Under the pieces are notes generated by a model. That model ran no database searches, was not told where the DNA came from, and saw only the letters and a list, made by a program, of their open reading frames with translations. A stretch of DNA of 46,153 nt from Terriglobia bacterium (GTDB lineage Bacteria; Acidobacteriota; Terriglobia; Terriglobales; Acidobacteriaceae), in contig JAJPJE010000009.1 in the NCBI GenBank assembly GCA_021324365.1, positions 1 through 46,153 on the forward strand, given 5' to 3'. Numbering within the stretch: position 1 is the stretch's first letter; each line of letters starts with the position of its first letter. The position numbers were made by a program, and so were the translations under genes. Shown in pieces: positions 21,671-37,592 of the stretch.

Positions 21671-22103
21671 ATGGTCCTCCCGCGCTAAAGAGTTTCGAGC
21701 GGAAGAATCTTGCCTAAGAAACCGGCCGCCGTCAAAGGTATGTAAGACGATGCCACGCTTGGCTAGGAATTCGGATTCACCGGTACTTTCCAGATCTACA
21801 AATGCGTGTCGTCGCTGGCAGGTGGAGACGACGTGTCCGGTATCTGCGGATCGTCCGCCTCAGCGAGGTCAAAGATCGAAGTAAACCGGAATGTGGAGCG
21901 CCCTTATTGCGAATCGAAAAGAGCTGCAAATCAGTATCGAGGTATTGAAAAAAGTCTTCCACGGGGACGAGAACTGCGCGGCCTTTCCCCTAGGATAAGC
22001 GAATCGTGCAGCAACCTGGGCCGGGTGTCGAGAGCCGCAGAGCCCAGAATTTTCGAAAAGTTTCAGTGCGCGGTTACAATCGGAGCCGCGGACCTAACAC
22101 GAA
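21671..22103. other. Intergenic region upstream of manD
   Basis: No complete gene can be supported. On the - strand, from the GTG at 21962, a short frame begins with the coding-like run VEDFFQYLDTDLQLFSIRNKG. It loses that character where another frame (FTSIFDLAEADDPQIP, ending at the stop 21796-21798) takes over. This could be a small gene with a frameshift, or chance. The manD control region lies at the right end. Confidence 0.4.
22055..22080 (+). promoter_or_regulatory. manD operator and -10 element
   Basis: GAAAAGTTTC (22055-22064) matches the GAAACGTTTC palindrome found at the GH3 promoter in 9 of 10 bases. It lies just upstream of a candidate -10, TACAAT (22075-22080), so a protein bound there would overlap the core promoter. 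No good -35 is visible. The ATG of manD lies 23 bases past the -10. Confidence 0.45.
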
Positions 22104-23312
22104 ATGAAGATTGTCGACGCGAAAGTAATCATCTGCTGTCCCGGTAGAAATTTCGTTACCCTCAAAATCACCACTGAAGATGGTCTTTACGGCCTGGGTG
22201 ATGCCACGCTGAATGGCCGCGAGTTGGCGGTGGCCAGCTATCTTTCGGACCACGTCGTTCCGCTGTTGATCGGACGCGATGCGCGCCGCATCGAAGACAA
22301 TTGGCAATACTTCTACAAGGGAGCTTATTGGCGCCGCGGGCCAGTAACGATGGCATCCATAGCTGCTGTCGATGCTGCGCTCTGGGACATTAAAGCCAAG
22401 TCGCTGAATACCCCGCTTTACCAATTGCTCGGCGGGGCGTCGCGAGATGCGGTGCTGGTTTATGGTCATGCCAGCGGGCACGACGTCGAGGACACGGTAA
22501 AAGCAGTCGCGCAGTTTCAGAAATCGGGATACAAGGCGATTCGCGCACAGTCCGGAATTCCTGGCCTTGCGAGCACATACGGAGTTCACTCAGGTTCGGG
22601 TCACTATGAACCGGCAGAAAAGGATGCGCCGCCTGAAAATGTGTGGTCGTCAGAAGCGTACATGACTTTCATTCCGACGCTCTTTGCGCGCCTGCGCAAA
22701 GAGTTCGGAGAGGAGCTTCACCTACTCCACGATGTTCATCACCGGTTGACTCCCATCGAAGCTGGGCGGGTAGGCAAGTCGCTGGAGCCATATCATCTCT
22801 TCTGGATGGAAGATCCGACGCCCGCCGAATTGCAGGAAAGCTTCCAGTTAATCCGCCAGCACACAACGACGCCGATTGCGGTTGGGGAAGTGTTCAATTC
22901 CATCTTCGATTGCCAGCAACTCATCCAAGAGCAGTTGATCGACTACATTCGCGCAACCGTCGTACATGCGGGAGGCATTTCGCATCTTCGCCGCATCGCG
23001 AATTTCGCCGAACTGTACCAGGTAAGAACGGGCTGCCACGGCGCGACGGATCTAAGTCCCGTGTGTATGGGGGCAGCTCTGCATTTTGATCTCAGCGTGC
23101 ACAACTTCGGAATCCAGGAATACATGCCGCATACATCGGAAACCGATAAAGTATTTCCCCATGCATATTCTTTCAGAGATGGAGTGATGCATCCCGGAGA
23201 CGAACCGGGTCACGGGGTGGATATCGATGAGGCGCTCGCGGCAAAGTATCCGTACCAGCGCGCCTATTTGCCAGTGAATCGGAAATCAGACGGCACGATG
23301 CACAACTGGTAG
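22104..23312 (+). CDS. manD: D-mannonate dehydratase, ManD/RspA type
   Basis: A cytoplasmic enolase-superfamily enzyme of 402 residues that removes water from D-mannonate to give 2-keto-3-deoxy-D-gluconate, a step in hexuronate breakdown. The Mg2+ ligands are Asp210, Glu236 and Glu262, in the motifs [20 protein letters not shown] and VGEVFNS. Arg147, Tyr159 and His212 match the ManD catalytic residues in both type and number as I recall them for the characterised 402-residue ManD of Novosphingobium. The end [13 protein letters not shown] is also typical. The family includes members with low activity and dual mannonate/gluconate specificity, so substrate is likely but not proven. The gene lies 94 bases before the GH3 gene and begins the xylan locus, where GH67 would supply glucuronate-type sugars. 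Confidence 0.9.
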
Positions 23313-23336
23313 GTGGAAGTTGCGCTGCGCGATGCA

Positions 23337-23378
23337 TTGACTGGTATCCCGCTCTGATGATATCTACTGAAACGTTTC
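23337..23378 (+). promoter_or_regulatory. GH3 promoter with downstream palindromic operator
   Basis: TTGACT (23337-23342), an 18-base spacer and TATCTA (23361-23366) form a promoter. Directly after it lies the perfect 10-bp palindrome GAAACGTTTC (23369-23378), where a bound repressor would cover the transcription start. A central CG with A/T-rich arms is typical of LacI-family operators. The 12 bases ATGATATCTACT (23357-23368) and the 12 bases AAACGTTTCTTT (23370-23381) both recur upstream of the GH10 gene. Confidence 0.6.
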
Positions 23379-23406
23379 TTTGCTCAACGCCTACACTGGC
23401 AGGAAC

Positions 23407-26067
23407 ATGATTTCCAAGACGACGCTGCTTTCGGCTCTCATTGTTGGTTTGTTTTCGCTCACCGTTAGTGCACAGGAAAGTTCAACTTCAGCCGACTACA
23501 AGAACCCTAATCTTCCGCTGGAGCGGCGCGTACATGATCTTGTCTCGCGCATGACGCTGGAGGAAAAGATTTCGCAACTGGGCCACACAGCTGATGCGAT
23601 TCCGCGGCTCGGCGTGCCGGAATACGAATGGTGGAATGAAGGACTGCACGGCGTTGCGCGCGCGGGTATCGCGACCGTATTTCCCCAGGCGATCGGCATG
23701 GCTGCTACGTTCGACCAGTCGCTGATGCATGAGATTGCCGACGTCATTAGTACCGAATTTCGCGCGAAGTATGTCACGACCCTCCATCCGGATGGATCGA
23801 GCGATCAATATCGCGGGCTGACGGTGTGGTCGCCGAATATCAACATTTTTCGTGATCCGCGGTGGGGACGTGGACAGGAAACATACGGCGAAGACCCTTA
23901 TCTTACGTCGCAAATGGGTGTGGCATTTGTCACCGGTCTGCAAGGGGACGATTCGAGGTATTTGAAGACGGTAGCGACTCCCAAACATTTCGCGGTGCAC
24001 AGCGGACCTGAGCCGACCCGGCACACGGTTGATGTCCAGGCATCACGGCACGACATGGAAGACACCTATTTGCCGGCATTTCGCGCCACTGTCATGCAAG
24101 GGCAGGCCGAATCGGTGATGTGCGCCTACAATTCCCTTAATGGCGAGCCCGCGTGCGCGAATACGGATCTGCTCGAGCAGCATCTTCGGCAGGACTGGGG
24201 ATTCCACGGCTATGTAGTGTCCGATTGCGCAGCTATTTCTGACATTTTTACCGGGCACCACTACACACACTCGATGGAGGAAGGCGTTGCTGCCGCCTTC
24301 AAGGTAGGAACTGACCTGGTCTGCGGCTCCACGATAACTCGTGTCAAGACAGAGCGTGATGCGCTGTTGAAAGCAGTGCAGTCGGGAATGTTGCCGGAAT
24401 CGGTGATCGATCGATCGCTGGAGCGCCTCTTCACCGCACGTTTTCGTCTGGGCATGTTCGATCCGCCCGGGATGAATCCTTATTCCAAGATCAATCCATC
24501 GCAGAATGATACTCAGGCGCATCGAGTGCTGGCGCTGCGAACAGCTCGCGAGTCAATCGTCCTGCTCAAGAACCAGAACCGATTACTGCCGCTGAAGAAG
24601 ACGTATGCGACGATCGCGGTCATTGGTCCAAATGCCGACAGTCTCGACGCGCTGGAAGGGAACTACAACGGAACCCCCTCGAGGCCAGTCACGGTTCTTG
24701 CGGGAATTCGCAAACGCTTCGCGAAGTCGAAGATCTTATACGCGGAAGGAACGGGTCTGATCGGTCCCGTGATTAAGCCGATTCCCGAAAGTGCCATTTA
24801 CACAGACCCCTCGCGTAACACGCATGGCCTTACCGCCGAATACTTTCCGAATACGAAGCTCGAGGGGAAACCTAGCCTGAGCCGGATAGATAAGACCGTT
24901 GACTTTGCATGGGGTTTCAACGGAGTCAACCCAGATCTGTCTAAAAACTATTCAGTGCGATGGAATGGCGTGATCGTACCTCCGGAGACGGGCGATTATC
25001 TCGTCGGGTTCGCCGGGCAGGATGGCTATCGCGTATGGCTCGATAACCAACTAATTGCCGAGGATTGGACTACGCATCGACCATCTACAACGCAAACGAA
25101 GAAGGTGCACCTGCTGAAGGGGCGCCCCTATGCGGTGAAGATTGAGTACTTCCAAACCATTCGTGGAGCGGAGGCACGGTTGGTTTGGAGCATGTCCCAG
25201 TGGGCACAGCAGCCGATCGATGTCGTCAAGCGCGCTGATCTGGCGATCGTCGTAATGGGTCTTTCGGCGCGCGTCGAAGGCGAAGAGATGAACGTACATG
25301 CGGAAGGTTTCGCCGGTGGCGATCGGACGAGAATTGATCTTCCGGAACCGCAGGAGCAATTACTGAAACAGATCGCAGCACTACACAAGCCCACCGTGCT
25401 GGTGCTGATGAATGGAAGTGCTCTGGCGGTGAACTGGGCCGATCAGAACGTCCCAGCGATTTTGGAAGCCTGGTATCCGGGCGAGGATGGTGGAACCGCG
25501 GTTGCGGAAGCGCTCGCGGGAGACTTCAGCCCAGGCGGCCGCTTGCCGGTAACATTTTACAAGTCGGTTGACCAGCTTCCGCCATTCGAGGACTACTCGA
25601 TGGCGAAACGCACATACCGCTACTTCGATGGAGATCCTCTTTACCCGTTTGGATACGGCCTGAGCTACACCAGGTTTACGTATTCGAATGCGAGGGCAGA
25701 CCACTCGAGCGTTGCGGCCGATGGCTCGGTGACACTGAAAGCGGATGTTACGAATTCCGGTGCGATGGCTGGCGACGAAGTGGTTCAACTGTATCTGACA
25801 CATGATGGCGTTCCTGGAGCTGCGTTACGTCAGTTGGCTGGTTTCGAGCGGCTACACCTTAAGCCGGGCGAACGCAAAACAGTTTCGTTCTTTCTACGAG
25901 ATCGCGATCTTGGCATTGTCGACGAAGCGGGCAGGCACCGTATCGTTCCCGGCCGGGTCGAGGTCTGGATCGGCGGAGGACAACCGACGGTTCGCGATGG
26001 TCTGCCGAAACCTGCCGGAGTAATGAGTAACTTCACAATAACCGGCGAAGCCACGCTGCCGGACTAA
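23407..26067 (+). CDS. GH3 beta-xylosidase/beta-glucosidase with PA14 domain
   Basis: An exported glycoside hydrolase of 886 residues. A signal peptide (MISKTTLLSALIVGLFSLTVSAQ) precedes the GH3 N-terminal barrel, with KHFAVHSGPEPTRH and the catalytic Asp273 in GYVVSDCAAI. The alpha/beta sandwich domain is interrupted by a PA14 domain (about 460-600, GLTAEYF to KIEYFQ). The C-terminal fibronectin-III-like domain follows (from about 760; GDEVVQLYLTH, LKPGERKTVSF). The HSGPE variant and the surrounding xylan genes favour beta-xylosidase, which cuts xylose from xylo-oligosaccharides with retention. Beta-glucosidase cannot be excluded. PA14 insertions in GH3 enzymes often shape the sugar pocket. 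I chose the ATG before the signal peptide rather than the TTG at 23380. A promoter and palindrome precede it. Confidence 0.92.
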   Translation: MISKTTLLSALIVGLFSLTVSAQESSTSADYKNPNLPLERRVHDLVSRMTLEEKISQLGHTADAIPRLGVPEYEWWNEGLHGVARAGIATVFPQAIGMAATFDQSLMHEIADVISTEFRAKYVTTLHPDGSSDQYRGLTVWSPNINIFRDPRWGRGQETYGEDPYLTSQMGVAFVTGLQGDDSRYLKTVATPKHFAVHSGPEPTRHTVDVQASRHDMEDTYLPAFRATVMQGQAESVMCAYNSLNGEPACANTDLLEQHLRQDWGFHGYVVSDCAAISDIFTGHHYTHSMEEGVAAAFKVGTDLVCGSTITRVKTERDALLKAVQSGMLPESVIDRSLERLFTARFRLGMFDPPGMNPYSKINPSQNDTQAHRVLALRTARESIVLLKNQNRLLPLKKTYATIAVIGPNADSLDALEGNYNGTPSRPVTVLAGIRKRFAKSKILYAEGTGLIGPVIKPIPESAIYTDPSRNTHGLTAEYFPNTKLEGKPSLSRIDKTVDFAWGFNGVNPDLSKNYSVRWNGVIVPPETGDYLVGFAGQDGYRVWLDNQLIAEDWTTHRPSTTQTKKVHLLKGRPYAVKIEYFQTIRGAEARLVWSMSQWAQQPIDVVKRADLAIVVMGLSARVEGEEMNVHAEGFAGGDRTRIDLPEPQEQLLKQIAALHKPTVLVLMNGSALAVNWADQNVPAILEAWYPGEDGGTAVAEALAGDFSPGGRLPVTFYKSVDQLPPFEDYSMAKRTYRYFDGDPLYPFGYGLSYTRFTYSNARADHSSVAADGSVTLKADVTNSGAMAGDEVVQLYLTHDGVPGAALRQLAGFERLHLKPGERKTVSFFLRDRDLGIVDEAGRHRIVPGRVEVWIGGGQPTVRDGLPKPAGVMSNFTITGEATLPD

Positions 26068-26129
26068 GGCTATGTTGGGGTACGGCTCGCGTCATTTTTG
26101 TCCGGGCACAAGCTAGCCCAAAAAAATCT

Positions 26130-26178
26130 AAAACGTTTCTTTAAAGGGCTTGACTTCAGGAATTCCGAATGATATCTA
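26130..26178 (+). promoter_or_regulatory. GH10 promoter with upstream operator
   Basis: AAAACGTTTCTTT (26130-26142) repeats the operator core seen at the GH3 gene. It is followed by TTGACT (26150-26155), a 17-base spacer and TATCTA (26173-26178). The 12-base -10 segment ATGATATCTACT (26169-26180) is identical to that at GH3. Here the operator lies upstream of the -35 instead of after the -10. The rest of 26068-26305 holds no gene. The leader to the ATG is about 120 bases. Confidence 0.6.
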
Positions 26179-26305
26179 CTTTGGCCGACTTAAGTTGTCG
26201 TGCCCAACAAACCATCGACTACGAGTCATAGTGCCCTTCAGATCGCCGTTTCCATCGTTGTAGGTCCTGCTCTTTGTGGACCCCGCATGTGCCTAAGGAG
26301 GAGTT

Positions 26306-29245
26306 ATGCGTCGTGCCGCCAGCCTGTTCACCAGTCGTAAAACTATGTCTCTGGTCATCATTGCCCTGATCGCTCTTGTTGCGACATCTGCCTGGGCGCA
26401 AGTGGTAACGAGCGATTTTGAAGATGGGCTGGATAACTGGACCGGATTTGCCGGCGCGAATGTCGCGGTCAGCACGAATCAGGCGAATACCGGGACGCAT
26501 AGCCTGTTGACAACGAATCGTTCGCAGACCTATCAGGGACCAAGCATCGATCTGACACAGGCACTGACGGCGGGGCAGCCATACATTTTTAAGGTTGCGG
26601 TGCGTTTGGCAGAAGGATTCGCCGGTCCAGATACGGTTAACATGACCATGCGAAGCACGGTGAACGGTTCGCAGACCTATACCACGGTGGCGACCGGTAC
26701 AGTGACCGATACAGGCTGGGTGGTATTACAAGGCTCTTTTGCTCCCGCAGCAAGCGGTCTGACCGATCTGCTGCTGTACATCGAAGACGACACCAATGCC
26801 AGCGCTTCATACTACATCGACACATTTAGCGTAACCGCGACCAGCGGCGGATGCAGCGTTCCTCCCGACAACTCCGGTTTCTCCAGCAACTTTGAAGATG
26901 GCACCGCCGACGGATGGGTATCACGCGGGGGCGGCTCTCCAGTCGTGCTTACGCCGACTCAGGCAGACGCTCACAGCGGAGCATGGAGCCTGCTGGTAAC
27001 CGGGCGTACGGCCACCTGGAATGGACCGACGCATGACATCAGCGGAAAGATGTGCAACGGTTCTCAGTACTGGATAGAGGTTTGGGTCAAGATGGCGCCC
27101 GGGCAACCGGACACGTCGATGAACCTGAGCCTGCAACTCACGGATCAGTTCGGCAATAACAGCTATCCGGGTGTGACGAATGCAACCGTGACTTCTGGCG
27201 GATGGGTACGCCTGAAAGCCAAGCCGTACACCTTCTCAGGCACGTATTCGACGCTCCAGATCTACGTGCAGTCGAATGACAATCCTGACGCATCCTTCTA
27301 CATCGACGATGTGAGCGTCACGTATATGCCGCCGCCAGTCATCGAGAACATCACACCCATTAAGCAGGTATACGCAAATGACTTTCTGGTTGGCTTTGCC
27401 GCGGGCCAGCAGGACATAATCGGCCCACACGGCCAGCTTGCGGCCTTGCACTACAACAGCGTGACTCCAGGTAACGATCTAAAGTGGGACACGACGGAAC
27501 CAACGGAAGGCAACTTCAACTTCGGTCCTGCGGACAATATCCTTGCCTTTGCGCAGGCGCATAACATCCAGATGCGCGGGCACAACTTCGTATGGCACAA
27601 CCAAGTACCTGCCTGGGTGTTCCAGGATGCGAACGGCGTCGATATGTCAACCGAACCGTTCAGCGAGGCAAATAAAGAGTTGTTGCTGTCGCGTTTGAAG
27701 AATCACATCACAACGTTGATCAACCACTACCAAGACAAGATTTACGTCTGGGACGTGGTTAACGAGGCAATTGATGAATCGCAGCCCGATGGATTCCGTC
27801 GGAGCAAGTGGTACATCATCACCACCGATCCGAATAACAATCCGGGTTATCCGGAGTACATGGACGATGCATTTATCTATGCTCGCCAGGCTTTGGACGC
27901 TCTGGGAATCCCACGCGAAAAAGTAAAGCTGTGCTACAACGACTACAACACGACGATCCCGAATAAGCGCACCTTCATTTACAACTGGTTGCAAGGTGCG
28001 ATTGCTCGTGGTGTGCCTATCGACTGCATCGGTAATCAGTTTCATAACACGATTAATTTCCCGATCGACGACCAGGGCTCTGCGGCCTCAAAGCAGAGCG
28101 TCATCGATACCATCAACCTGTTCTCCGGGCTCATATCGACGGCGAAAGTTCCGATCATCAACGAAGTTACCGAGTTCGACATGAGTCTGTATCGCTACGG
28201 ACAGTGCTCGCAGAAGTTTTACTTCGATTACGATGACTTGCTGGCCAATGACACAACAGACCTGATCAACCAGGGCTATCGTTATCGTGACTACTTCCAG
28301 ATCTTCAAGAACATGCACGACAAGATCGACAGCGTGACGATCTGGGGCCTGGGTGACGATGACAGCTGGCTCAACCCTTCGACGAACACAGCAGGGTGCT
28401 CAGGAATTAATGCGAACGATTCCCCGCTGCCGTTCGACGCATACTTGCAACACAAATATGCGTACACGGGAATCGTAGATCCTCTTGACTTGCCGGGAGC
28501 AGACCTGGCGACCACGGTAACTGCCAACTCAAGCACCATTCTGAGCGGGCAGAATGTTACCTACACGATCACGGTCACGAACAACGGTCACGATTCCGCG
28601 GCCAACGTATCGCTCACCGATGTACTGCCGGGCGGGACGGTGTTCGAGTCCCTGACGCCGGCTTCGGGATGGACATGTACGACTCCGGCGGTAGGCAGCA
28701 ATGGAACGGTGAATTGCACGGTAGCTTCCATGAGCGACGGAACGGTTGCTCCATTCACGCTCGTCGCGATGGTGGCCTGCCCCACGCCGAACGGAACGCA
28801 AATCACGAATACTGCGTCGGTGACGTCGACCACGCTCGACCCGAATCCGACGCCGAACACGACGGCTTCGGTTGCCATCAATGTGTCGAACCCCCCGCCA
28901 GTTATCACCGGGTTGAGCGCGACGCCGTCAGCTTTGTGGCCGCCATTTAATCAACTTGTACCGGTGAGGCTGTGGTATACCGTAAGCGACAATTGCGATA
29001 CATCAATCGTCCCACTGGTCACCGTTAGCAGCAATGAACGTCCAGAGCGGCATGAGTGGTGGCCGGACTGGAAGGTCATCAATCCGCGGCTGGTCCTGCT
29101 GCGAGCGGAGCGGTCGGGCGAGGATCGCAATGGGCTCGTCTACACTATTACGGTCACCGCCGCCGATTCTGCCGGGTACTCTACGAGCAGTTCGGTGAAT
29201 GTGGCTGTTCCGCACGACCATCACGATGATCACGGTGGACATTAA
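26306..29245 (+). CDS. Multidomain GH10 endo-beta-1,4-xylanase
   Basis: A secreted xylanase of 979 residues that cuts the beta-1,4-xylan backbone. Order: signal peptide to about 31 (ALVATSAWAQ); two carbohydrate-binding modules of the CBM4/9/22 type (about 35-178 and 190-340, each ending with a YYIDTFSV/FYIDDVSV strand); and the GH10 barrel (about 350-745). The barrel has RGHNFVWHNQVPAWVF, acid/base Glu487 in WDVVNEAID and nucleophile Glu623 in VTEFDM. A DUF11 immunoglobulin-like repeat follows (about 750-868; ATTVTANSSTILSGQNVTYT), then a last beta domain with the tail HDHHDDHGGH. AAGGAGG 4 bases upstream fixes the start. DUF11 is common in surface-bound proteins, so the enzyme may stay on the cell. 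It leads the GH67 and GH35-like genes. Confidence 0.95.
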   Translation: MRRAASLFTSRKTMSLVIIALIALVATSAWAQVVTSDFEDGLDNWTGFAGANVAVSTNQANTGTHSLLTTNRSQTYQGPSIDLTQALTAGQPYIFKVAVRLAEGFAGPDTVNMTMRSTVNGSQTYTTVATGTVTDTGWVVLQGSFAPAASGLTDLLLYIEDDTNASASYYIDTFSVTATSGGCSVPPDNSGFSSNFEDGTADGWVSRGGGSPVVLTPTQADAHSGAWSLLVTGRTATWNGPTHDISGKMCNGSQYWIEVWVKMAPGQPDTSMNLSLQLTDQFGNNSYPGVTNATVTSGGWVRLKAKPYTFSGTYSTLQIYVQSNDNPDASFYIDDVSVTYMPPPVIENITPIKQVYANDFLVGFAAGQQDIIGPHGQLAALHYNSVTPGNDLKWDTTEPTEGNFNFGPADNILAFAQAHNIQMRGHNFVWHNQVPAWVFQDANGVDMSTEPFSEANKELLLSRLKNHITTLINHYQDKIYVWDVVNEAIDESQPDGFRRSKWYIITTDPNNNPGYPEYMDDAFIYARQALDALGIPREKVKLCYNDYNTTIPNKRTFIYNWLQGAIARGVPIDCIGNQFHNTINFPIDDQGSAASKQSVIDTINLFSGLISTAKVPIINEVTEFDMSLYRYGQCSQKFYFDYDDLLANDTTDLINQGYRYRDYFQIFKNMHDKIDSVTIWGLGDDDSWLNPSTNTAGCSGINANDSPLPFDAYLQHKYAYTGIVDPLDLPGADLATTVTANSSTILSGQNVTYTITVTNNGHDSAANVSLTDVLPGGTVFESLTPASGWTCTTPAVGSNGTVNCTVASMSDGTVAPFTLVAMVACPTPNGTQITNTASVTSTTLDPNPTPNTTASVAINVSNPPPVITGLSATPSALWPPFNQLVPVRLWYTVSDNCDTSIVPLVTVSSNERPERHEWWPDWKVINPRLVLLRAERSGEDRNGLVYTITVTAADSAGYSTSSSVNVAVPHDHHDDHGGH

Positions 29246-29256
29246 GATTGGAGCTT

Positions 29257-29285
29257 CCGGTGGGCGCCACTGCGGTGCCCACCGG
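29257..29285 (+). other. Strong hairpin between GH10 and GH67 genes
   Basis: CCGGTGGGC (29257-29265) pairs perfectly with GCCCACCGG (29277-29285), and the 11-base loop can form a small inner stem. It starts 12 bases after the GH10 stop and ends 17 bases before the GH67 start. There is no clean T run, so it may act as a partial terminator or as an mRNA stabiliser that sets the ratio of xylanase to the two downstream enzymes. Confidence 0.6.
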
Positions 29286-29302
29286 TCGTTCTTCGGGCCC
29301 TC

Positions 29303-31822
29303 ATGAAAAACAGCTCTGCTGTCTGCTGTGTTGTGCTGCTCTTATGGCTATGTGCCCTCGTTCATGCCGAGAGCGGGTATGACGCATGGCTGCGGTACGC
29401 TCCTCAGACCGGCGCCGTGCGCGCAGGGGCCGGCACAGTTCCCGAGAACCTTACGATTCTGGGCGATTCGCCTGTCATTGAGTCCGCAAAGTCGGAACTG
29501 ATACGCGGAGTTCACGGCATGCTGGGCCACGACATCGCCTCCTCGAAGAATGTCGGAGGCCGACCGGCCATTGTTTTAGGGACGATTGCGGATTTGCGGA
29601 AAGCGGGCGTAAATCTTTCCGCTCCACAGGATCTGACCGGCGATGGGTACTGGCTGACATCGGCGGAAGTGGATGGCAATCGTGACACGATTATTACCGG
29701 GCTCACGGATCGTGGCGTTCTCTACGGGTCATTCGCATGGCTGAACCGCGTTGCCCGCGGCCAGACAGCTCGCGGCGCGGATGAGGTAAGTAGCCCGCAC
29801 ATTCTGCTTCGCTGGATCAATCAGTGGGACAACCTCGACGGCAGCATCGAGCGCGGTTATGGTGGGCGCTCTATTTTTTTCGATGGCGGGGCGGTGCGCA
29901 GCGACCTGAGCCGCGTTCGTGATTATGCGCGTCTTCTTGCGTCGGTAGGGATCAACGGCTGTGTTGTCAATAACGTGAACGCCAGTCCCAACGTGCTGGC
30001 CGACGACTTCATTCCTCAACTGGCGCGAATTGCTGATGAGTTCCGTCCATGGGGCATTCGAATCGGGCTTTCCGTTAACTTCGCCAGCCCAAAACTCATT
30101 GGCGGATTGGACACCTTTGATCCCGTTGATCCGAAGGTCGCTGCCTGGTGGAAGAGTAAAGTCGACGAGATCTACCATACGATTCCTGACTTCGGTGGAT
30201 TCGTCCTGAAGGCGGATTCAGAAGGCCAACTCGGCCCGGCATCTTACGGACGTACGCCCGCTGATGCCGCCAATGTTGTCGCGCGCGCTCTCAAGCCGCA
30301 TGGCGGTTATGTCTTTTACCGCGCCTTCGTCTACAACCATCATCTGGATTGGACAAACCTGAAGAACGATCGCGCGAAAGCGGCCTACGAAAACTTTCAT
30401 CCGCTCGACGGAAAGTTCGACGATAACGTGATCATCCAGATCAAGAACGGACCGATTGATTTCCAGGTACGCGAGCCGGCTTCGCCGCTGTTCAGCGGAT
30501 TGGAACACACCAACGAAGCCATAGAGTTGCAAATCACGCAGGAATACCTGGGGCAACAGCGTCATTTGGTGTTTTCCGTTCCACTCTGGAAGGCGACGCT
30601 CGACTTCGATATGCGGGTGAACGGGCAACATACGCCAGTGAAAGACATTGTTGCCGGGAAGACTTTTCATCGATCCCTCGGCGGGTTTGCGGGCGTGGCG
30701 AATGTCGGGTTGGACGATACCTGGCTAGGCAGCATCTTGTCGATGGCGAACCTATACGGCTTTGGGCGGCTTTCATGGAATCCTGATCTGAGCGCTCCCA
30801 ACATCATCGACGAGTGGACACGCCTCACGTTCGGAAATGATCCACAATTGGATCGCACAATCGATGACATGCAGTTGGGCGCGTGGCGTGTTTACGAGAA
30901 CTACACAGGACCACTCGGCTTGCAGACACTGACGAATATTGTGGGGCCACACTACGGACCCGGTCCTGAGTCGGCTGATCACAATGGGTGGGGGCAATGG
31001 ATTCGCGCAGATCACGACGGTGTAGGTATGGACCGTACGATTGCAACGGGAACCGGATTTATCGGCCAATACTGGCCCGAAGTGCAAAAGGAATTTGAGC
31101 CGCTCGCAAAGTGTCCCGACGATCTGCTTCTATTTTTCCATCACGTGCCATATACGTATCGCTTGCATTCTGGCAAGACGGTGATCCAGGAGATCTACGA
31201 TCTGCACTACGAGGGCGCTGCGAGCGCGCAGAAATATGTCCCCCAGTGGGAGTCGCTCAGGGGGCAGGTTGACGAGCAGCGTTACGCTTCGGTGCTTGCC
31301 ATGCTGAAATATCAGTCCGGACACGCGATCGTGTGGCGCGATGCGATTACGAAATGGTTTAGGAAGCTTTCTGGCATCGCGGATGCTCAAGGCAGAGTGG
31401 GACATTATCCGGATCGCGTCGAGGCTGAATCGATGCAACTGCAGGGATACAAACCGATTGATGTTGTCCCCTGGGAAATGGCTTCGGGCGGGAAGGGAAT
31501 TGAGTGTCCCGCTCAGCTGCAGACTTGCAGTGCGACGTTTCAGTTCCAAGGCGATCCGGGCCGTTACAATCTCGAAGTTCAATACTTCGATCAGAATAAC
31601 GGCGTCTCGCGCTATCGAGTTTATGCAGGAGGGAAACAGGTGAGCGAATGGCTGGCGGACGCGCATCTTCCTGCGAACCGGCCGAATGGGGATTCAAGCA
31701 CGCGCAGGGAGATCAATGATGTAACACTTCATGCAGGAGAGGAAATTCGCATTGAAGGGATACCCGATAGCGGGGAGCGCGCTCCGCTTGATTATGTGGC
31801 GATTAAGCCTGCGGTGAATTAG
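29303..31822 (+). CDS. GH67 alpha-glucuronidase
   Basis: An exported enzyme of 839 residues that removes (4-O-methyl)-D-glucuronic acid from the end of glucuronoxylo-oligosaccharides. A signal peptide (about 1-22, ending CALVHA) is followed by the N-terminal GH67 domain and the catalytic barrel with the hallmark LRWINQWDNLDGSIERGYG. The general acid is Glu307 in KADSEGQLG. The proposed base pair is Asp386 (KNGPIDFQ) and Glu414 (ITQEYLG), spaced 28 apart as in characterised GH67 enzymes. The C-terminal helical domain follows. A final segment (YPDRVEAESMQLQGYKPIDV onward, about 690-839) resembles a carbohydrate-binding beta domain and makes the protein longer than compact GH67 enzymes of about 700 residues. 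The next gene starts 3 bases after the stop. Confidence 0.95.
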   Translation: MKNSSAVCCVVLLLWLCALVHAESGYDAWLRYAPQTGAVRAGAGTVPENLTILGDSPVIESAKSELIRGVHGMLGHDIASSKNVGGRPAIVLGTIADLRKAGVNLSAPQDLTGDGYWLTSAEVDGNRDTIITGLTDRGVLYGSFAWLNRVARGQTARGADEVSSPHILLRWINQWDNLDGSIERGYGGRSIFFDGGAVRSDLSRVRDYARLLASVGINGCVVNNVNASPNVLADDFIPQLARIADEFRPWGIRIGLSVNFASPKLIGGLDTFDPVDPKVAAWWKSKVDEIYHTIPDFGGFVLKADSEGQLGPASYGRTPADAANVVARALKPHGGYVFYRAFVYNHHLDWTNLKNDRAKAAYENFHPLDGKFDDNVIIQIKNGPIDFQVREPASPLFSGLEHTNEAIELQITQEYLGQQRHLVFSVPLWKATLDFDMRVNGQHTPVKDIVAGKTFHRSLGGFAGVANVGLDDTWLGSILSMANLYGFGRLSWNPDLSAPNIIDEWTRLTFGNDPQLDRTIDDMQLGAWRVYENYTGPLGLQTLTNIVGPHYGPGPESADHNGWGQWIRADHDGVGMDRTIATGTGFIGQYWPEVQKEFEPLAKCPDDLLLFFHHVPYTYRLHSGKTVIQEIYDLHYEGAASAQKYVPQWESLRGQVDEQRYASVLAMLKYQSGHAIVWRDAITKWFRKLSGIADAQGRVGHYPDRVEAESMQLQGYKPIDVVPWEMASGGKGIECPAQLQTCSATFQFQGDPGRYNLEVQYFDQNNGVSRYRVYAGGKQVSEWLADAHLPANRPNGDSSTRREINDVTLHAGEEIRIEGIPDSGERAPLDYVAIKPAVN

Positions 31823-31825
31823 CGG

Positions 31826-33490
31826 ATGTTCGGAGCAAGAGGGATTGAAATCACGTTCACGCTGAAAAAATCTGTTCTCCTGCTTGGAATTGCTGCTGTG
31901 ATCTGCTCGACAGCAGCGGCGGAGCAGCCCCCAACTATCAGTTTCACGAGCGGCACCGGCCAGTTGATCGTTCGCGGCAAGCCCTTCCTAGTGCTCGGCG
32001 GTGAACTTGCCAACTCTTCGGCTGGGACCGCCGCTCAGGCTGACACCATACTTCCTAAACTCGCGCAGATGCACATCAACACGGTGCTCATGCCAGTGGC
32101 TTGGGAGCAGATCGAACCAGCAGAGGGCCATTTCGATTTTTCCATCCTCGATCGCTGGACTGAGGTTGCGCGGAAGCAAAATCTCCATCTTGTAATTCTG
32201 TGGTTCGGAAGTTGGAAGAACGCTTTTTCGGAATACGCGCCAGACTGGGTGAAGTCCGATACTGCAAGATTCCCTCGCGCCATTTCTGCGGAGGGGCTCC
32301 CCACCGAAATTCTTTCGACTTTTGGGGGGGAGACGGTGCGCTCTGATGCCCGGGCATTCGGGGCGCTTATGCGCCACATACGCGAGATTGATGCCGAACA
32401 ACAAACCGTCGTAATGGTGCAGGTGGAAAACGAGATCGGGTTTTTGGGACGCGGCGGCCGCGATCGCTCTGCCGCAGCGAATCGCGCGTTCCAGGGCACG
32501 GTGCCTTCGGAATTGACTCGCGGACTCGAACAACATCGGCTGCAACTGTCCCCAGAATTGGCGGAATCATTTAAGTCTGGCGGCCACACCTGGAGCGAAG
32601 TATTTGGTGCTAATGCCGACGAAGTCTTTATGGCATGGCATTACGCCGTATTCGTCAACAAAGTCGCGCAGGCGGGGAAGAAGGAATATGCGCTGCCAAT
32701 GTATTTGAATGCACAGCTTCCGGCTCCCCTGGAGCGTGCTGGTGAGTATCCAAGTGGTGGTCCGCACCCCTATTATCAGGAGGTCTACCGGATCGGTGCG
32801 CCCTCGATCGACTTCTATTCACCGGACATCTATTGGCCGAACTTTGACTACTGGGTTCAGCGATATCAGAGTGCACGGAATCCGGTTTTCGTTCCGGAAG
32901 CACGGCTTGATTCGGCTCCCTACAACGCGCTCTATGCTTACGGGCAGGCGCGAGCCTTCGGATTTTCTCCGTTTGGTGTGGACTCGGAATCCCGGGCCTC
33001 AAAACAATCTGATGCCAAGCCTGAATTGTCGGACTTCTACGCGGTCCTGGCCGACCTGAGCGACGTCATTCTCGATAAGCAAGAGCATGATCAGTGTCGT
33101 GGCCTGGTGGTTCATGCGAACAGTTCACGTCCGACTCAGACGGTTGCCCTTGGCGGATATCTCTTCGAAGCTACTCTGTCGCGCTCATGGCCAGCCAAGT
33201 CTCTGCTTACCGATGACGGCGCAGTGATGGTCCTCGAGATGAAGCCAGACGAGTTCTACCTTGTGGGCGCGGGCCTTACTGTGTCTGTCTTCCGCGATCC
33301 GGACACGGATGACCGTACAGCCGGCATCGCAAGCATCGAGCAAATCTCAAAAGCAAATGGACAATGGGTCGTAGATCGGCGGTTGAATGGAGATGAGAGC
33401 AATCAGGGTCGGCAACTACTTATGGATGCTCGCACGATCCATGTCTATCGCGTAAAGCTCTACACGTATTCCGACGTGCGCTCTCATTAA
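31826..33490 (+). CDS. GH35-like beta-galactosidase, DUF5597 type
   Basis: An exported glycosidase of 554 residues. After an N-terminal hydrophobic signal (KKSVLLLGIAAVICSTAAA) comes a clan GH-A barrel: FLVLGGELANSS, TVLMPVAWEQIEPAEGHFDF, acid/base Glu203 in MVQVENEIG and probable nucleophile Glu358 in FVPEAR. The C-terminal beta domain (about 400-554, with FYAVLADL and DEFYLVGAGLTVS) corresponds to the DUF5597 region found in GH35-like proteins of Proteobacteria and Bacteroidota. Beta-galactosidase is the family name, but in a xylan operon the natural target may be a galactose- or arabinose-type side group. The ATG follows the GH67 stop by 3 bases and lacks its own ribosome site, so translation is probably coupled. 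Confidence 0.85.
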   Translation: MFGARGIEITFTLKKSVLLLGIAAVICSTAAAEQPPTISFTSGTGQLIVRGKPFLVLGGELANSSAGTAAQADTILPKLAQMHINTVLMPVAWEQIEPAEGHFDFSILDRWTEVARKQNLHLVILWFGSWKNAFSEYAPDWVKSDTARFPRAISAEGLPTEILSTFGGETVRSDARAFGALMRHIREIDAEQQTVVMVQVENEIGFLGRGGRDRSAAANRAFQGTVPSELTRGLEQHRLQLSPELAESFKSGGHTWSEVFGANADEVFMAWHYAVFVNKVAQAGKKEYALPMYLNAQLPAPLERAGEYPSGGPHPYYQEVYRIGAPSIDFYSPDIYWPNFDYWVQRYQSARNPVFVPEARLDSAPYNALYAYGQARAFGFSPFGVDSESRASKQSDAKPELSDFYAVLADLSDVILDKQEHDQCRGLVVHANSSRPTQTVALGGYLFEATLSRSWPAKSLLTDDGAVMVLEMKPDEFYLVGAGLTVSVFRDPDTDDRTAGIASIEQISKANGQWVVDRRLNGDESNQGRQLLMDARTIHVYRVKLYTYSDVRSH

Positions 33491-33914
33491 GAAAGCGAAG
33501 CAGACCACAAGCAAAGTGATATTGGTTTCGCGAACCAACAGTTTCTGTTTGCGACAAGATACTTAAAAAGTGAAAAAACGTGTTTTCGAGCTTGACACCA
33601 GATGCGAAACTACATATAGTTCGTGCCGCGAATTAATGTTGACTCGCCTGCCATTTCGAAGTAGGCCTTCTGCGGGGATCACTCGTACGAAATAGGTGCG
33701 CACCGTTTCCTGCCGTAGCTAAGAGCAATTCGCAAAGCAGCTATTTTGTTTGAGTGCTGAATTAACACAAGCTTAATCGGGCGACGTCCCGGGTCGCATC
33801 CAGACACACTTTTGCCGAGTCGGACATTACTGACGAAGCAGTGTTGCCGTTGCAGTGCATCCGCCAGCGGGCGGGTGTTGCATTGAATCTGGCGTTCTCG
33901 GAGGAGGCGTACCC
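33491..33914 (+). promoter_or_regulatory. Long control and leader region of the TonB receptor
   Basis: No gene. From left to right it holds a palindromic site TTGGTT-TCGCG-AACCAA (33522-33538), an operator-like AAAAC-GT-GTTTT (33575-33586), the promoter listed separately, and a leader of about 290 bases with a small GCGAC/GTCGC hairpin (33781-33797). The ribosome site GGAGGAGG (33900-33907) lies 7 bases before GTG 33915 and decides that start. Confidence 0.6.
33592..33620 (+). promoter_or_regulatory. Near-consensus sigma-70 promoter of the TonB receptor
   Basis: TTGACA (33592-33597), a 17-base spacer and TATAGT (33615-33620). The -35 is a perfect match, the -10 matches in five of six bases, and the spacing is ideal. 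Strong promoters of this kind usually need a repressor. The AAAACGTGTTTT element ends 5 bases before the -35, in the same relative place as the operator at GH10. Confidence 0.75.
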
Positions 33915-36900
33915 GTGCTCAGATTTTTGCGTACTATTACGACCAATCGAAACCACCTAACCGCAAGACTGTTCCTGCCGGTATTTCTCTCGTTGCTGCT
34001 GGTAATGTCATTTGGCGCGGCAGCGTCAGCTCAAGTTTTGTACGGTTCGCTAACCGGAACGGTCACCGATACTTCAGGCGCCGCGATTGCGAATGCAGAT
34101 GTAGAAGCGCTGAATGACGCGACCGGAGTGAAGTTGACGGGGAAGACGGATGCCAGCGGAATTTATCGGTTCAGCAACCTGCAACCTGGCGTTTACAAAA
34201 TCACAATCAAGGCCCCGAACTTCACGACTTCGGTTTCGGACAACGTGCCGGTTCGAGTAAACGAGGTGCGGCGCGTCGATGCACAACTATCCGTGTCAAC
34301 CCAGACGCAGAACATTCAGGTGACGGCGGAGGCTCCCCTCCTGCAGACGGACAAGTCCGATGTTCACACCGATCTGACGTCGACCGAGGTTTCGCAACTG
34401 CCAACTGCCGGCTCACAAGGAAGAAACTTCCAATCGCTGTTGCGAGTGATCCCTGGGTCAGGAGGGATTGCAGAAACCAACTCGCTTTCCGGGAATCCAG
34501 AACGAGCGATCAATGTCAACGTGAACGGCCAGTCGAATCAGGGCGTGAACACGCGAATTGACGGCACACAGGACGCTTACCCGTGGCTACCGGCGAACAT
34601 TGCTTACGTTCCGCCTGCGGACGCCATCCAGGAAGTTAACGTCACTACAAACTCCTTCGACGCCGAGCAAGGCATGGCGGGCGGCGCTGCAGTGAACGTG
34701 CAGATCAAGTCCGGCACCAACCAGTTTCATGGAACTGCCGATTGGTTCCATACCGACCAGAACTTCGCGGCACGAAATTACTTTCAGCCTAAGACTCTGC
34801 CTCCCATCAACAGGAACAACCAGAATCAGTTTGGCGGAACGTTAGGTGGCCCGATCATAAAAAACAAGCTGTTCTTTTTCGGAGACTGGGAGCGCACGAC
34901 GCAGCGCAACAAAGCCGGACCGGACCTTCGCAGCGTGCCTACTGCAGCCATGTTAACGGGTGACTTTCGCAATTTGCCCGGAAATCCCATTATCTACGAC
35001 CCGGCGACAGGAGGTCCGACCGGAGCGGGCAAGCAGCAGATATCATGCAACGGCGTGTTGAACGTGATCTGCCCGAACCGTATCGATGCAGCGAGTGCGG
35101 TGATGGCCCAACTGCTGGCACCAGTTGTTGCGCAGGAGTATGCCACAAGTAACGGCCTCAACAATTTTGCGGGCAGCGGAACGGCGGCATTTACTCGCGA
35201 CAACATCGACGCAAAGATCAACTGGATTCCGACTCAGAAGTCCACGATGTTCGGACGGTACAGCTTCTCGCGCGGTACGGTGTTCGATCCACCGCTGCTA
35301 GGCGCCGCAGGTGGCGACGCAACCAATGGCGGACAACTCGGCAGCGCTCCCTTTTTCATTCAAAGCTACGCGCTGGGTGCGACTTATACGTTTACGCCAA
35401 ACCTGCTGCTGGACTGGAACTTCGGCTACACACGCCAAAGGATTGCGGCGCAGTTCGATTTGGGCACTCCGAAAGGCCTCAACCTCCTTGGGATTCCAGG
35501 CACGAATGGTGCAGGCGTTCCAGGGGCGGGCGACCTCTATAACGGACTCCCTGCATTCCAGATCAATTCTGGAGCTGCCAGTCTGAATCTCGGAAATCCC
35601 AACACTGGTAACCCATTTCTCTTCCGCGACAATCAGTTTGTGACAGGAGCCAACCTGAGTTGGACGCACGGAAAGCACAATCTGCGTGGCGGGATCGAGT
35701 GGAACCACTCGGGGCTAAACCACTTCCAACCGCAGGGTGGGGCTTTCCAGACCGCACGCGGCAGCTTCCTGTTTAATGGTGACGTTACGTCCCTGCCCGG
35801 TACTACTCCGACCTACTTCAATTCGGTTGCAGATTTCCTGTTGGGCCTGCCGAGCCAGACCGGCAAGGTCTACCAGCTCTTCAATCCCATCGCGTTGCGA
35901 TGGTCGCAGTGGGCCTGGTATGTGCGAGACCAATGGCAACTGACGCCAAAACTGACGCTGAATCTAGGCCTGCGCTGGGAATACTATCCTTTCGGCTACA
36001 GCGATAACGGACTGGGCCTGCGCTGGTTTAATCCGGCAGATGGAAATGTGTATATCGGCGGCTTGGGTAATGTTCCCACTAACGACGGCATCGATGTCGG
36101 GCATGGGCAATTCCTCCCTCGAGTCGGAGCCGCATATAGGCTTACCTCTTCCACGGTCATTCGCGCCGGCTATGGCATGAGCGCGGATCCGAACAACTGG
36201 CGCTACTTCCGGAACGCATATCCATCCGCGGTGATTTCCAACAACGTATTGCCGAACACCTCGTACTACATCCCGGTCGCCAGCCTGACTGGTACGAACG
36301 GCACTGCGTTGGGAGGCGGCACTTATTCCGTTCCCACCGGATTGGTGAACCTGCCCCCGCCGAATATAAGCTCCGGTGTTGTTCCTCTTCCGACATCTGC
36401 TTCGACAACGACGATCCCCAACCCATTCCATCGCGGCTACATCAATTCGTTCAATGTCATGGTGGAACAGCAGTGGAAAGGATTCACATTCCAAACCGGT
36501 TATGTGGGTAGCCGCGACGTTCGGCCCTTGGTAAACATGAACCTTAACGCATCCGCGCCGGGCACAGGTGCGGCGGGAGGGCTCATCAGCCAGGCTTTGG
36601 GCAAGACGTACACAGGCACGATCAACGGCTTGGTACCGTTCCAGAACAGTCTTTATGATTCCTTGCAGACTCAGATCAGGCGCAACTTCTCGCATGGTGC
36701 GTCATTTGGATTTGCGTGGACATGGTCGAGAGCGCTCGACTACGAGGACAATGAAGATCTGAACGCTTTGTCATACCCGTATCCTACGTACTGGCAGAAG
36801 AACTATGGACCAGCAGGTTTCGACCGCACACAGAACTTCGAGATCTACGGCGTGCTGCAGTTGCCATTCGGAAAGGGACAGCCGTGGCTGAAGGAAGGTG

Positions 36901-37448
36901 TAGGGAACTGGATCCTTGGTGGTTGGCAAATCAGCCCTGTGGTCAGCATTATGAGCGGCTTGCCTTTTACGGTAACCGGCAACGGCTCTTCGCTGAACGC
37001 GAACGGTTCGGCCCAAACCGCCAATCTCGTGGGCCCGTATAGCGTGTCCAACGGTCAGCCATATCAGACCTACAACACGTGTACGAGCGCAAGCTGCCGC
37101 TACTTCGACCCGAGCGCTTTTGCAGCTCCAGCGGCAGCCACCTATGGCAACACGAACCGCAATCAGTTTCGCGGGCCCGGCTACTTCAACATGAACCTGA
37201 GCATCTCGCGGGAGTTCAAGCTCACCGAGAGGTTCAGGTGGCAGATTCGTGCAGATGCCTTGGGATTCACCAATACGCCCCACTTCGCCAATCCAAATTC
37301 GTCGTGCGGGAATACGGCGACGAATCCGAGTTGTACAGCGACTAACCCGAACTTCGGGGTAATCACCAGCACACTTCAACCGGGAGGCTTCTTCGGTCCA
37401 GATCCTGGAAGCCGCGTTGTGTGGCTGGGAACGCGATTGGTGTTCTGA
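33915..37448 (+). CDS. Oar-like TonB-dependent receptor
   Basis: An outer-membrane receptor of about 1177 residues. A signal peptide (about 1-39, ending FGAAASAQ) precedes a carboxypeptidase-regulatory-like domain (about 42-125: LYGSLTGTVTDTSGAAIANADV to RVDAQLSVSTQTQ). A plug domain follows (about 130-250, with FDAEQGMAGGAAVNVQIKSG and NQFHGTADWFHT). A long beta-barrel then runs to the C-terminus (LGTRLVF, terminal Phe). Proteins with this order are abundant in Acidobacteriota and Myxococcota and are thought to import large substrates using TonB energy. Its place between xylan hydrolases and a ROK regulator, and its operator-like element, suggest it takes up xylan fragments. No SusD-like partner is present, unlike Bacteroidota systems. 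The start is fixed by GGAGGAGG, and an intrinsic terminator follows the stop. Confidence 0.92.
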   Translation: MLRFLRTITTNRNHLTARLFLPVFLSLLLVMSFGAAASAQVLYGSLTGTVTDTSGAAIANADVEALNDATGVKLTGKTDASGIYRFSNLQPGVYKITIKAPNFTTSVSDNVPVRVNEVRRVDAQLSVSTQTQNIQVTAEAPLLQTDKSDVHTDLTSTEVSQLPTAGSQGRNFQSLLRVIPGSGGIAETNSLSGNPERAINVNVNGQSNQGVNTRIDGTQDAYPWLPANIAYVPPADAIQEVNVTTNSFDAEQGMAGGAAVNVQIKSGTNQFHGTADWFHTDQNFAARNYFQPKTLPPINRNNQNQFGGTLGGPIIKNKLFFFGDWERTTQRNKAGPDLRSVPTAAMLTGDFRNLPGNPIIYDPATGGPTGAGKQQISCNGVLNVICPNRIDAASAVMAQLLAPVVAQEYATSNGLNNFAGSGTAAFTRDNIDAKINWIPTQKSTMFGRYSFSRGTVFDPPLLGAAGGDATNGGQLGSAPFFIQSYALGATYTFTPNLLLDWNFGYTRQRIAAQFDLGTPKGLNLLGIPGTNGAGVPGAGDLYNGLPAFQINSGAASLNLGNPNTGNPFLFRDNQFVTGANLSWTHGKHNLRGGIEWNHSGLNHFQPQGGAFQTARGSFLFNGDVTSLPGTTPTYFNSVADFLLGLPSQTGKVYQLFNPIALRWSQWAWYVRDQWQLTPKLTLNLGLRWEYYPFGYSDNGLGLRWFNPADGNVYIGGLGNVPTNDGIDVGHGQFLPRVGAAYRLTSSTVIRAGYGMSADPNNWRYFRNAYPSAVISNNVLPNTSYYIPVASLTGTNGTALGGGTYSVPTGLVNLPPPNISSGVVPLPTSASTTTIPNPFHRGYINSFNVMVEQQWKGFTFQTGYVGSRDVRPLVNMNLNASAPGTGAAGGLISQALGKTYTGTINGLVPFQNSLYDSLQTQIRRNFSHGASFGFAWTWSRALDYEDNEDLNALSYPYPTYWQKNYGPAGFDRTQNFEIYGVLQLPFGKGQPWLKEGVGNWILGGWQISPVVSIMSGLPFTVTGNGSSLNANGSAQTANLVGPYSVSNGQPYQTYNTCTSASCRYFDPSAFAAPAAATYGNTNRNQFRGPGYFNMNLSISREFKLTERFRWQIRADALGFTNTPHFANPNSSCGNTATNPSCTATNPNFGVITSTLQPGGFFGPDPGSRVVWLGTRLVF

Positions 37449-37465
37449 TTGTCAGTACCTCCGGT

Positions 37466-37500
37466 GCGAGCACGTCAAGCAAGGGCGTGCTCGCTTTTTA
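37466..37500 (+). terminator. Intrinsic terminator after the TonB receptor
   Basis: A perfect 9-bp stem, GCGAGCACG (37466-37474) with CGTGCTCGC (37486-37494), is followed at once by TTTTTAT. It starts 18 bases after the receptor stop. This is the clearest terminator in the window and separates the receptor from the ROK gene. Confidence 0.9.
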
Positions 37501-37577
37501 TCTCATTCGCTGCGGTGTTATCTGTCGCCACACTCAGGCAAGGACCGAAAGACGCAAGCTACCGGGTTGCGAAACAT

Positions 37578-37592
37578 AACGGGAAACCGTTT
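37578..37592 (+). promoter_or_regulatory. Palindromic site upstream of the ROK gene
   Basis: AACGG-GAAA-CCGTT (37578-37591) overlaps AAAC-C-GTTT (37584-37592). The latter resembles the locus operator AAACGTTT with one base added at the centre. It lies about 100 bases before the ROK start, a place suited to autoregulation. A possible -10, TATAAC (37642-37647), follows, but no clear -35 is present. Confidence 0.4.

Follow-up and report, generated by a model that had tools for sequence, protein, structure and literature searches.

A candidate LacI-type operator at xylan-degradation genes of a Terriglobia bacterium, with an arabinose-linked LacI protein as its predicted reader

Introduction

A short palindrome, GAAACGTTTC, stands intact or nearly so upstream of the GH3 and GH10 glycoside hydrolase (GH) genes of a glucuronoxylan locus in a Terriglobia bacterium (phylum Acidobacteriota; assembly GCA_021324365.1), and here we compare it with the operators of described LacI-family regulators. 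The stretch of DNA analyzed, referred to below as the window, is the 46,153-nucleotide contig JAJPJE010000009.1 (G000:C110), a single contig in a 4.44-Mb genome of 125 contigs that is 95% complete. Papers are cited by their PubMed Central numbers.

In LacI regulons at large, operators are even palindromes with a central CG that lie mostly 30 to 140 bases upstream of the start codon, and most regulons are autoregulated, a site at the regulator's own gene occurring for 72% of LacI regulators (PMC4052901). The word "Acidobacteri" is absent from the main text of that paper, and the available text of the open-licence PubMed Central papers searched yielded no description of an Acidobacteriota regulon under a LacI-family protein. 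Genes of the LacI type are nevertheless common in this family of bacteria. The palindrome considered here resembles those operators in being even with a central CG, intact at GH3, kdgK and a GH52/GPH symporter pair and with one outer pair broken at GH10 and the ara genes, and a version of it, GAAACGTTTA, lies at the own gene of the regulator proposed below (LacI-74). The distance from site centre to start codon is about 33 bases at GH3, 171 at GH10 and 19 at kdgK, and the GH10 and kdgK sites thus differ from the general pattern in falling outside the 30- to 140-base range.

The core of the palindrome is a familiar LacI-family operator form, known from Cra and RbsR. Operators of the LacI-family protein Cra (FruR) of Escherichia coli contain GCTGAAACGTTTCA, the GH3 site reads ACTGAAACGTTTCT, and GAAACGTTTC itself lies within a Cra operator (PMC11157272). 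Cra governs more than 100 central-metabolism genes in E. coli, whereas here a few pentose and uronate genes are concerned, and the associated LacI gene is ara linked; among the 51 of 55 matches to the core AAACGTTT that we examined, only the one at kdgK-kdgA was seen beside central-metabolism genes. For RbsR, the predicted core in Serratia is likewise AAACGTTT (PMC5601083), and of the NCBIfam models the one for RbsR, NF047341, fits LacI-74 best. However, the score of 178.6 bits falls short of the cut-off of 382, the neighbors of LacI-74 are ara rather than rbs genes, and we rejected it as an RbsR ortholog on these grounds. AraR and XylR, LacI-family repressors that co-regulate arabinanase and xylanase genes (PMC10766802), control the same kind of gene set; the present operator comes from another phylum, and the likeness drawn here is one of gene set.

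The reading developed here names one candidate regulator, one candidate operator and a short list of predicted targets. Among the relatives, operator and recognition helix vary in a readable series, from which the drift of LacI specificity could be studied.

Copies of the palindrome in the window

The candidate sites in the window (no strand assigned) and the candidate promoters beside three of them are as follows.

23369..23378, candidate operator GAAACGTTTC, a perfect 10-base palindrome, 2 bases past the GH3 −10; matrix rank 2; 12-mer common to five other places
26130..26139, candidate operator AAAACGTTTC with a break in one outer pair, 10 bases upstream of the GH10 −35; matrix rank 1; same 12-mer
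33575..33586, weak candidate AAAACGTGTTTT, 5 bases upstream of the TonB receptor −35; one mismatch to AAACGTTT; matrix rank 4
22055..22064, doubtful candidate GAAAAGTTTC at the manD promoter TCGAAA-16-TACAAT; central CG lost; matrix rank 10
37584..37592, AAACCGTTT upstream of the ROK gene, rejected as a copy; odd 9-mer; matrix rank 200
23337..23366, plus strand, candidate GH3 promoter TTGACT-18-TATCTA, read by eye and missed by the automatic scan
26150..26178, plus strand, candidate GH10 promoter TTGACT-17-TATCTA, read by eye and missed by the automatic scan
33592..33620, plus strand, candidate TonB receptor promoter TTGACA-17-TATAGT, found by the automatic scan with 11/12 matches

An earlier note on this DNA had proposed that most promoters of the locus carry one and the same palindrome. 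All five of its strings are present at the coordinates given there, and the GH3 and GH10 copies do share 12 bases, AAACGTTTCTTT. The wider claim was not supported: two copies (GH3 and GH10) are good, one (TonB) is weak, one (manD) is doubtful and one (ROK) was rejected, and the idea of a shared repressor-type operator is upheld for GH3 and GH10 and not for the whole locus. With at most one mismatch, GAAACGTTTC occurs in the window at exactly three places (manD, GH3 and GH10), each directly upstream of a locus gene. The TonB copy keeps the CG and has one wrong base in its right half; the manD copy has AG at the place that CG holds in LacI-type sites.

The matrix was built from eight sites outside the window and applied to all window positions; because those sites were chosen partly by their core, it orders the copies and provides no free significance test. 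In none of 200 shuffles did two positions score as well as the GH3 site. As an odd 9-mer that ranks 200th among all window positions, the ROK copy was discarded as a genuine site and probably reflects chance, which may also account for the manD copy. At up to two mismatches GAAACGTTTC is found 28 times in the window versus 23 in shuffles; since the relaxed motif is not enriched, weak copies by themselves carry no meaning. The automatic promoter scan, which listed the TonB and manD promoters without those of GH3 and GH10, found fewer promoter-like sites in the window than in shuffles (6 versus 9.7).

Recurrence across the genome

The best statistic for the motif is the count of the 12-mer. AAACGTTTCTTT occurs at at least six places in the genome, all outside called genes, compared with 0.53 expected under a first-order model of the window: at GH3, at GH10, at kdgK-kdgA, in the gap between GH52 and a GPH symporter gene, upstream of an RND pump gene and at an orphan position (L031). 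Leaving GH3 and GH10 aside, the four other places still give P = 0.002, and the reversed 12-mer matched twice in the DNA fetched. The 10-base GAAACGTTTC has 11 matches in the genome, and its reversed control has 2. Gene calls followed a greedy longest-open-reading-frame (ORF) rule, which leaves about 10% of the window noncoding and makes all coding and noncoding labels approximate (the site at L221:9208, for example, falls in a short ORF, as do the CGTTAACG sites of L096 and L098 described below).

Placement was examined for 51 of the 55 AAACGTTT sites and 50 of the 55 sites of its reversed control, TTTGCAAA. Outside called genes lay 22/51 and 13/50, respectively, and 18/51 versus 9/50 were promoter proximal (Fisher P = 0.04). 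Carbohydrate genes, a class that is our reading of Pfam names, stood behind 7 of the 18 promoter-proximal AAACGTTT sites and 0 of the 9 control sites, with 19 of 23 flanking ORFs put to Pfam for AAACGTTT and 10 of 15 for TTTGCAAA, 4 of the latter without a Pfam match. The seven are GH3, GH10, kdgK-kdgA, GH52/GPH, LacI-74/araD, an SSS symporter (counted without a substrate assignment) and GH20; left out of the count were the YdjC gene at L058 and the TonB receptor at L056. The kdgK-kdgA site is a perfect 12-base site. Members of GH52 are known as beta-xylosidases, and the GH52 gene (436 bits) with its GPH symporter neighbor (373 bits, family cut-off 231) looks like a pair for the uptake and cleavage of xylosides; the site in their gap lies 2 bases upstream of the −10 TACAAT. 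The enrichment upstream of xylan, xylose and uronate genes that the earlier note would have taken as support appears in part, at xylan, arabinose and 2-keto-3-deoxygluconate (KDG) genes, and is lacking at xylBA and uxaC; a regulon covering the whole pathway was rejected for that reason.

A candidate regulator beside the arabinose genes

Five genes in the genome encode a LacI domain. One of them, LacI-74 (G000:C74, about 40923-41999, minus strand), encodes 358 amino acids with the helix STTTVSVVI and a LacI helix-turn-helix (PF00356) above the cut-off. It lies on a contig other than the window, divergent from araD and genes for a FucI-type isomerase and ribulokinase (araB), and GAAACGTTTA stands in the LacI-74/araD gap, about 108 bases upstream of LacI-74 and 7 bases past a promoter read by eye as TTGACA-18-TATTTT. 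PurR, with the helix STTTVSHVI, has an operator with a AAACGTTT core, which offers a reason why an STTT helix might read that core.

The flanks of related genes point the same way. Among 30 LacI loci over the family, noncoding AAACGTTT was found at 4 of the 8 loci nearest LacI-74 (its own included) versus 0 of the 22 others. When all 1024 ten-base palindromes were ranked in the flanks of the eight nearest loci, GAAACGTTTC came first at up to one mismatch, its lead being 2 loci with three places over nine other palindromes at 2 loci with two places, and AAAACGTTTT came first at up to two mismatches (7/8 loci). The eight genes were delimited by BLAST identity (54% or more); in a tree with very long branches, six of them form one clade (100/100), with those of G015 and G126 outside.

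On these grounds we predict, with a probability of about 0.6, that the palindrome serves as operator for a repressor of the LacI family, LacI-74 being the most likely one, whose targets would have roles in pentose and uronate use. Of the binders that the earlier note had considered, a LacI-family protein encoded elsewhere is thus the one supported, and LacI-74, beside the arabinose genes, is favored. The element is probably a LacI-type operator, ordinary in kind, at GH3, GH10 and a few functionally matching genes. The sequences, positions and recurrence of the sites, as well as like sites beside several LacI-74 orthologs, are seen directly.

Binding, the sign of control and the ligand are inferred, as follows. 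When no sugar signal is present, a LacI dimer would hold the CG-centered palindrome. At GH3 and araD, where the site lies just past the −10, initiation would be blocked; at GH10, where it lies upstream of the −35, binding could act by looping, by interference or even as a help to activation. A ligand from pentose or uronate breakdown would then release the repressor, and GH3, GH10-GH67-DUF5597, GH52, the GPH symporter, kdgK-kdgA and the ara genes would rise together.

Conservation and variation in relatives

Of 150 genomes, 46 have a GH67 match, and 40 GH67 neighborhoods from these were surveyed. The assignment of xylA, and of several genes in the relatives, was made by reading the sequence by eye. 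Conservation upstream of orthologous genes, whose lack the earlier note had taken as refuting its motif, was not seen for the literal motif in these 40 neighborhoods and was rejected; some relatives carry a changed version beside a LacI-74 ortholog or GH67 instead. Noncoding matrix matches of at least 11 bits occur at 9 of the 40 loci.

In G054, a LacI-74 ortholog (65% identity) shares a cluster with ROK, GH67, GH3 and two TonB receptors (the last three read by eye). The receptor adjoining it carries CTAAATCGATTTAG, which is also found in G107, and CTAAATCGCTTTAG lies about 550 bases upstream of GH67 in G054. In G097, TTAAATCGATTCAG lies 67 bases upstream of GH67; no close LacI-74 ortholog occurs there, and a paralog may read this site. 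G032 and G062 have AAAACGTTTT together with mixed sites beside the LacI-74 ortholog. The LacI protein of G015, outside the clade, has the same STTTVSVV helix, and AGAAACGTTTCT and AGAAACGATTCT stand 21 bases apart upstream of its own gene. A site at the regulator's own gene is seen for LacI-74 and in G015; some other orthologs have none directly at their gene.

Helix and operator can be set side by side across these genomes. In G054, within the xylan cluster, and in G107, an ortholog helix SPTTISVV faces CTAAATCGATTTAG; in the genome studied here, an STTTVSVV regulator lies beside arabinose genes, and the sequence that it would face, CTGAAACGTTTCTTT, is dispersed over xylan, symporter and KDG genes; and mixed-half sites such as GAAACGATTT and AAAACGATTT occur in G032, G015 and G062. 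It is conceivable, though we offer this only tentatively, that regulator and operator changed together while the regulon stayed on xylan, and that two LacI regulators exchanged parts of the pathway, the second being the one with the SIGTVDR helix, whose site CGTTAACG stands at GH67/GH3 in some relatives and at xylBA in the genome studied here.

Points against the LacI-74 operator and alternative explanations

Several results weigh against the palindrome being the LacI-74 operator. LacI-74 was first noticed through its site, which is therefore not independent evidence. In the six-member clade, GAAACGTTTC does not lead, and AAAACGTTTT ties with five other palindromes at one mismatch; at two mismatches AAAACGTTTT leads, at 5/6 loci. 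In the window, AAACGTTT at up to one mismatch is not enriched (16 versus a mean of 16.4 in shuffles), and over the whole genome its count equals that of TTTGCAAA, 55 each. The 11 matches of GAAACGTTTC compare with 10 to 12 in several other genomes of the family (150 counted), and only 4 of the 11 are promoter proximal. For four of the 18 promoter-proximal AAACGTTT sites, Pfam gives the adjoining genes no connection to sugars (AhpC/TSA, PilZ, ACT/HAD and RND pump genes are examples), and xylBA and uxaC, as noted, lack this palindrome. The copy TTAGAGAAACGTTTCTTTA at the RND pump (L062:5614-5627; G000:C66:53614), nearly the same as the kdgK site, lies directly downstream of a GntR/UTRA gene and about 290 bases upstream of the pump gene; the LacI-74 reading does not account for it. 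The 40 GH67 neighborhoods hold three noncoding AAACGTTT sites, none of which we could link to xylan genes. At GH67 in G107, G032 and G015, three genomes that encode a LacI-74 ortholog or a similar protein, the matrix has no match. In seven genomes with LacI-74-like genes, AGAAACGTTTCT at up to one mismatch is not in excess (6 versus 13 controls in G032, 11 versus 10 in G015); in the genome studied here it has 18 matches versus 11 for controls, many inside genes.

Another LacI protein could instead own the palindrome, perhaps one that governs central carbon flow as Cra or CcpA does. The candidates are LacI-65, LacI-71, LacI-123 (encoded next to zwf) and any LacI protein that the 95% complete assembly does not contain. 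The perfect kdgK-kdgA site lies on the contig of LacI-123, next to pentose-phosphate and glycolytic genes (read by eye), and the inner part of a Cra operator agrees base for base with CTGAAACGTTTC at GH3 (PMC11157272). However, the flanks of genes like LacI-123 favor TTATCGATAA (8/29 loci) and show GAAACGTTTC at 0/29, with the limit that these relatives are at most 50% identical, and the flanks of 22 paralogs of the LacI-71 type favor AAATCGATTT (5/22) and show GAAACGTTTC at none. We rejected LacI-123 as first choice on its flanks, and we regard ownership by any of these proteins as unlikely.

Chance, in the form of AT-rich promoter palindromes picked by eye, is improbable as an account of the whole. 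The unenriched relaxed matches in the window, the equal counts of AAACGTTT and its reversed control and the lack of conservation of the literal motif in relatives are what it would predict; the 12-mer, the placement outside genes, the functions behind the sites and their presence beside LacI-74-like genes speak against it. Control of the locus by the local ROK protein, the binder first suggested in the earlier note, is highly improbable and was rejected: relatives do show a linkage of this gene with GH67 (of 41 loci searched, 11 in 10 genomes have an ortholog, at 49 to 72% identity), but GAAACGTTTC at up to one mismatch occurs in the 400 bases upstream of none of these 11 orthologs, its own copy ranks 200th by the matrix, and the good sites are also found at places remote from the ROK gene of the locus.

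Genes of the locus and further observations

The genes of the locus, all on the plus strand, follow in order.

22104..23312, plus strand, manD, D-mannonate dehydratase (NCBIfam NF043051, 730 bits, cut-off 550; Pfam MR_MLE)
23407..26067, plus strand, GH3 with a PA14 domain (Pfam); start picked by eye
26306..29245, plus strand, GH10 with CBM4/9 domains (Pfam)
29303..31822, plus strand, GH67 alpha-glucuronidase (Pfam)
31826..33490, plus strand, GH42/GH35-like gene with DUF5597 (Pfam), presumed to be in the GH10-GH67 operon
33855..37448, plus strand, TonB-dependent receptor (Pfam OMP_b-brl_4 and CarboxypepD_reg)
37695..38930, plus strand, ROK-family regulator with a winged-helix N terminus (Pfam)

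GH10 and GH67, separated by 57 bases, probably form one predicted operon, and the true start of the TonB receptor is perhaps the GTG at 33915. Upstream of the receptor lies an inverted repeat, TTGGTTTCGCGAACCAA (window 33522-33538), whose core TTCGCGAA was not seen at the receptors of relatives and is not conserved. Upstream of the RND pump gene, a 34-base unit, AATAGTAAGTGAATGCTTACAATTTGCCCCGCGG, which holds the inverted repeat GTAAG...CTTAC, occurs twice in tandem (L062, about 5770-5840). The orphan copy of the 12-mer, TCTAAAACGTTTCTTTAGAAGG (L031:1501; G000:C42:15915; minus strand), lies within 1 kb of DNA in which a tRNA-Thr is the only gene called, and has no evident target.

Other LacI paralogs have palindromes of their own. 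Flanks of LacI-123-like genes (about 42 to 50% identical; L281-L309) carry TTATCGATAA-like palindromes at the 8 of 29 loci mentioned above, and an exact count over 30 such loci found noncoding AAACGTTT at one (L303); flanks of the other paralogous LacI genes (L161-L182) carry AAATCGATTT-like palindromes at 5 of 22. A second LacI-type site, CGTTAACG (TTAACG), is found at the own gene of LacI-84, upstream of xylB-xylA and at the SSS symporter (L033:9352-9365, L238:2280-2291 and L039:2755-2766), and upstream of GH67 or GH3 in some relatives (L095, L098 and L103). In G054 and G107, GH67 and a GH3 gene flank a LacI gene whose product falls with LacI-84 in the tree (support 100/100 for the LacI proteins included), and CCGTTAACGTACACG lies upstream of that GH3. 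LacI-84, with an SIGTVDR helix, has CGTTAACGTTAACG at its own gene, xylB-xylA has GTTAACGTTAAC, and the SSS symporter combines a site like that of LacI-84 with a AAACGTTT site.

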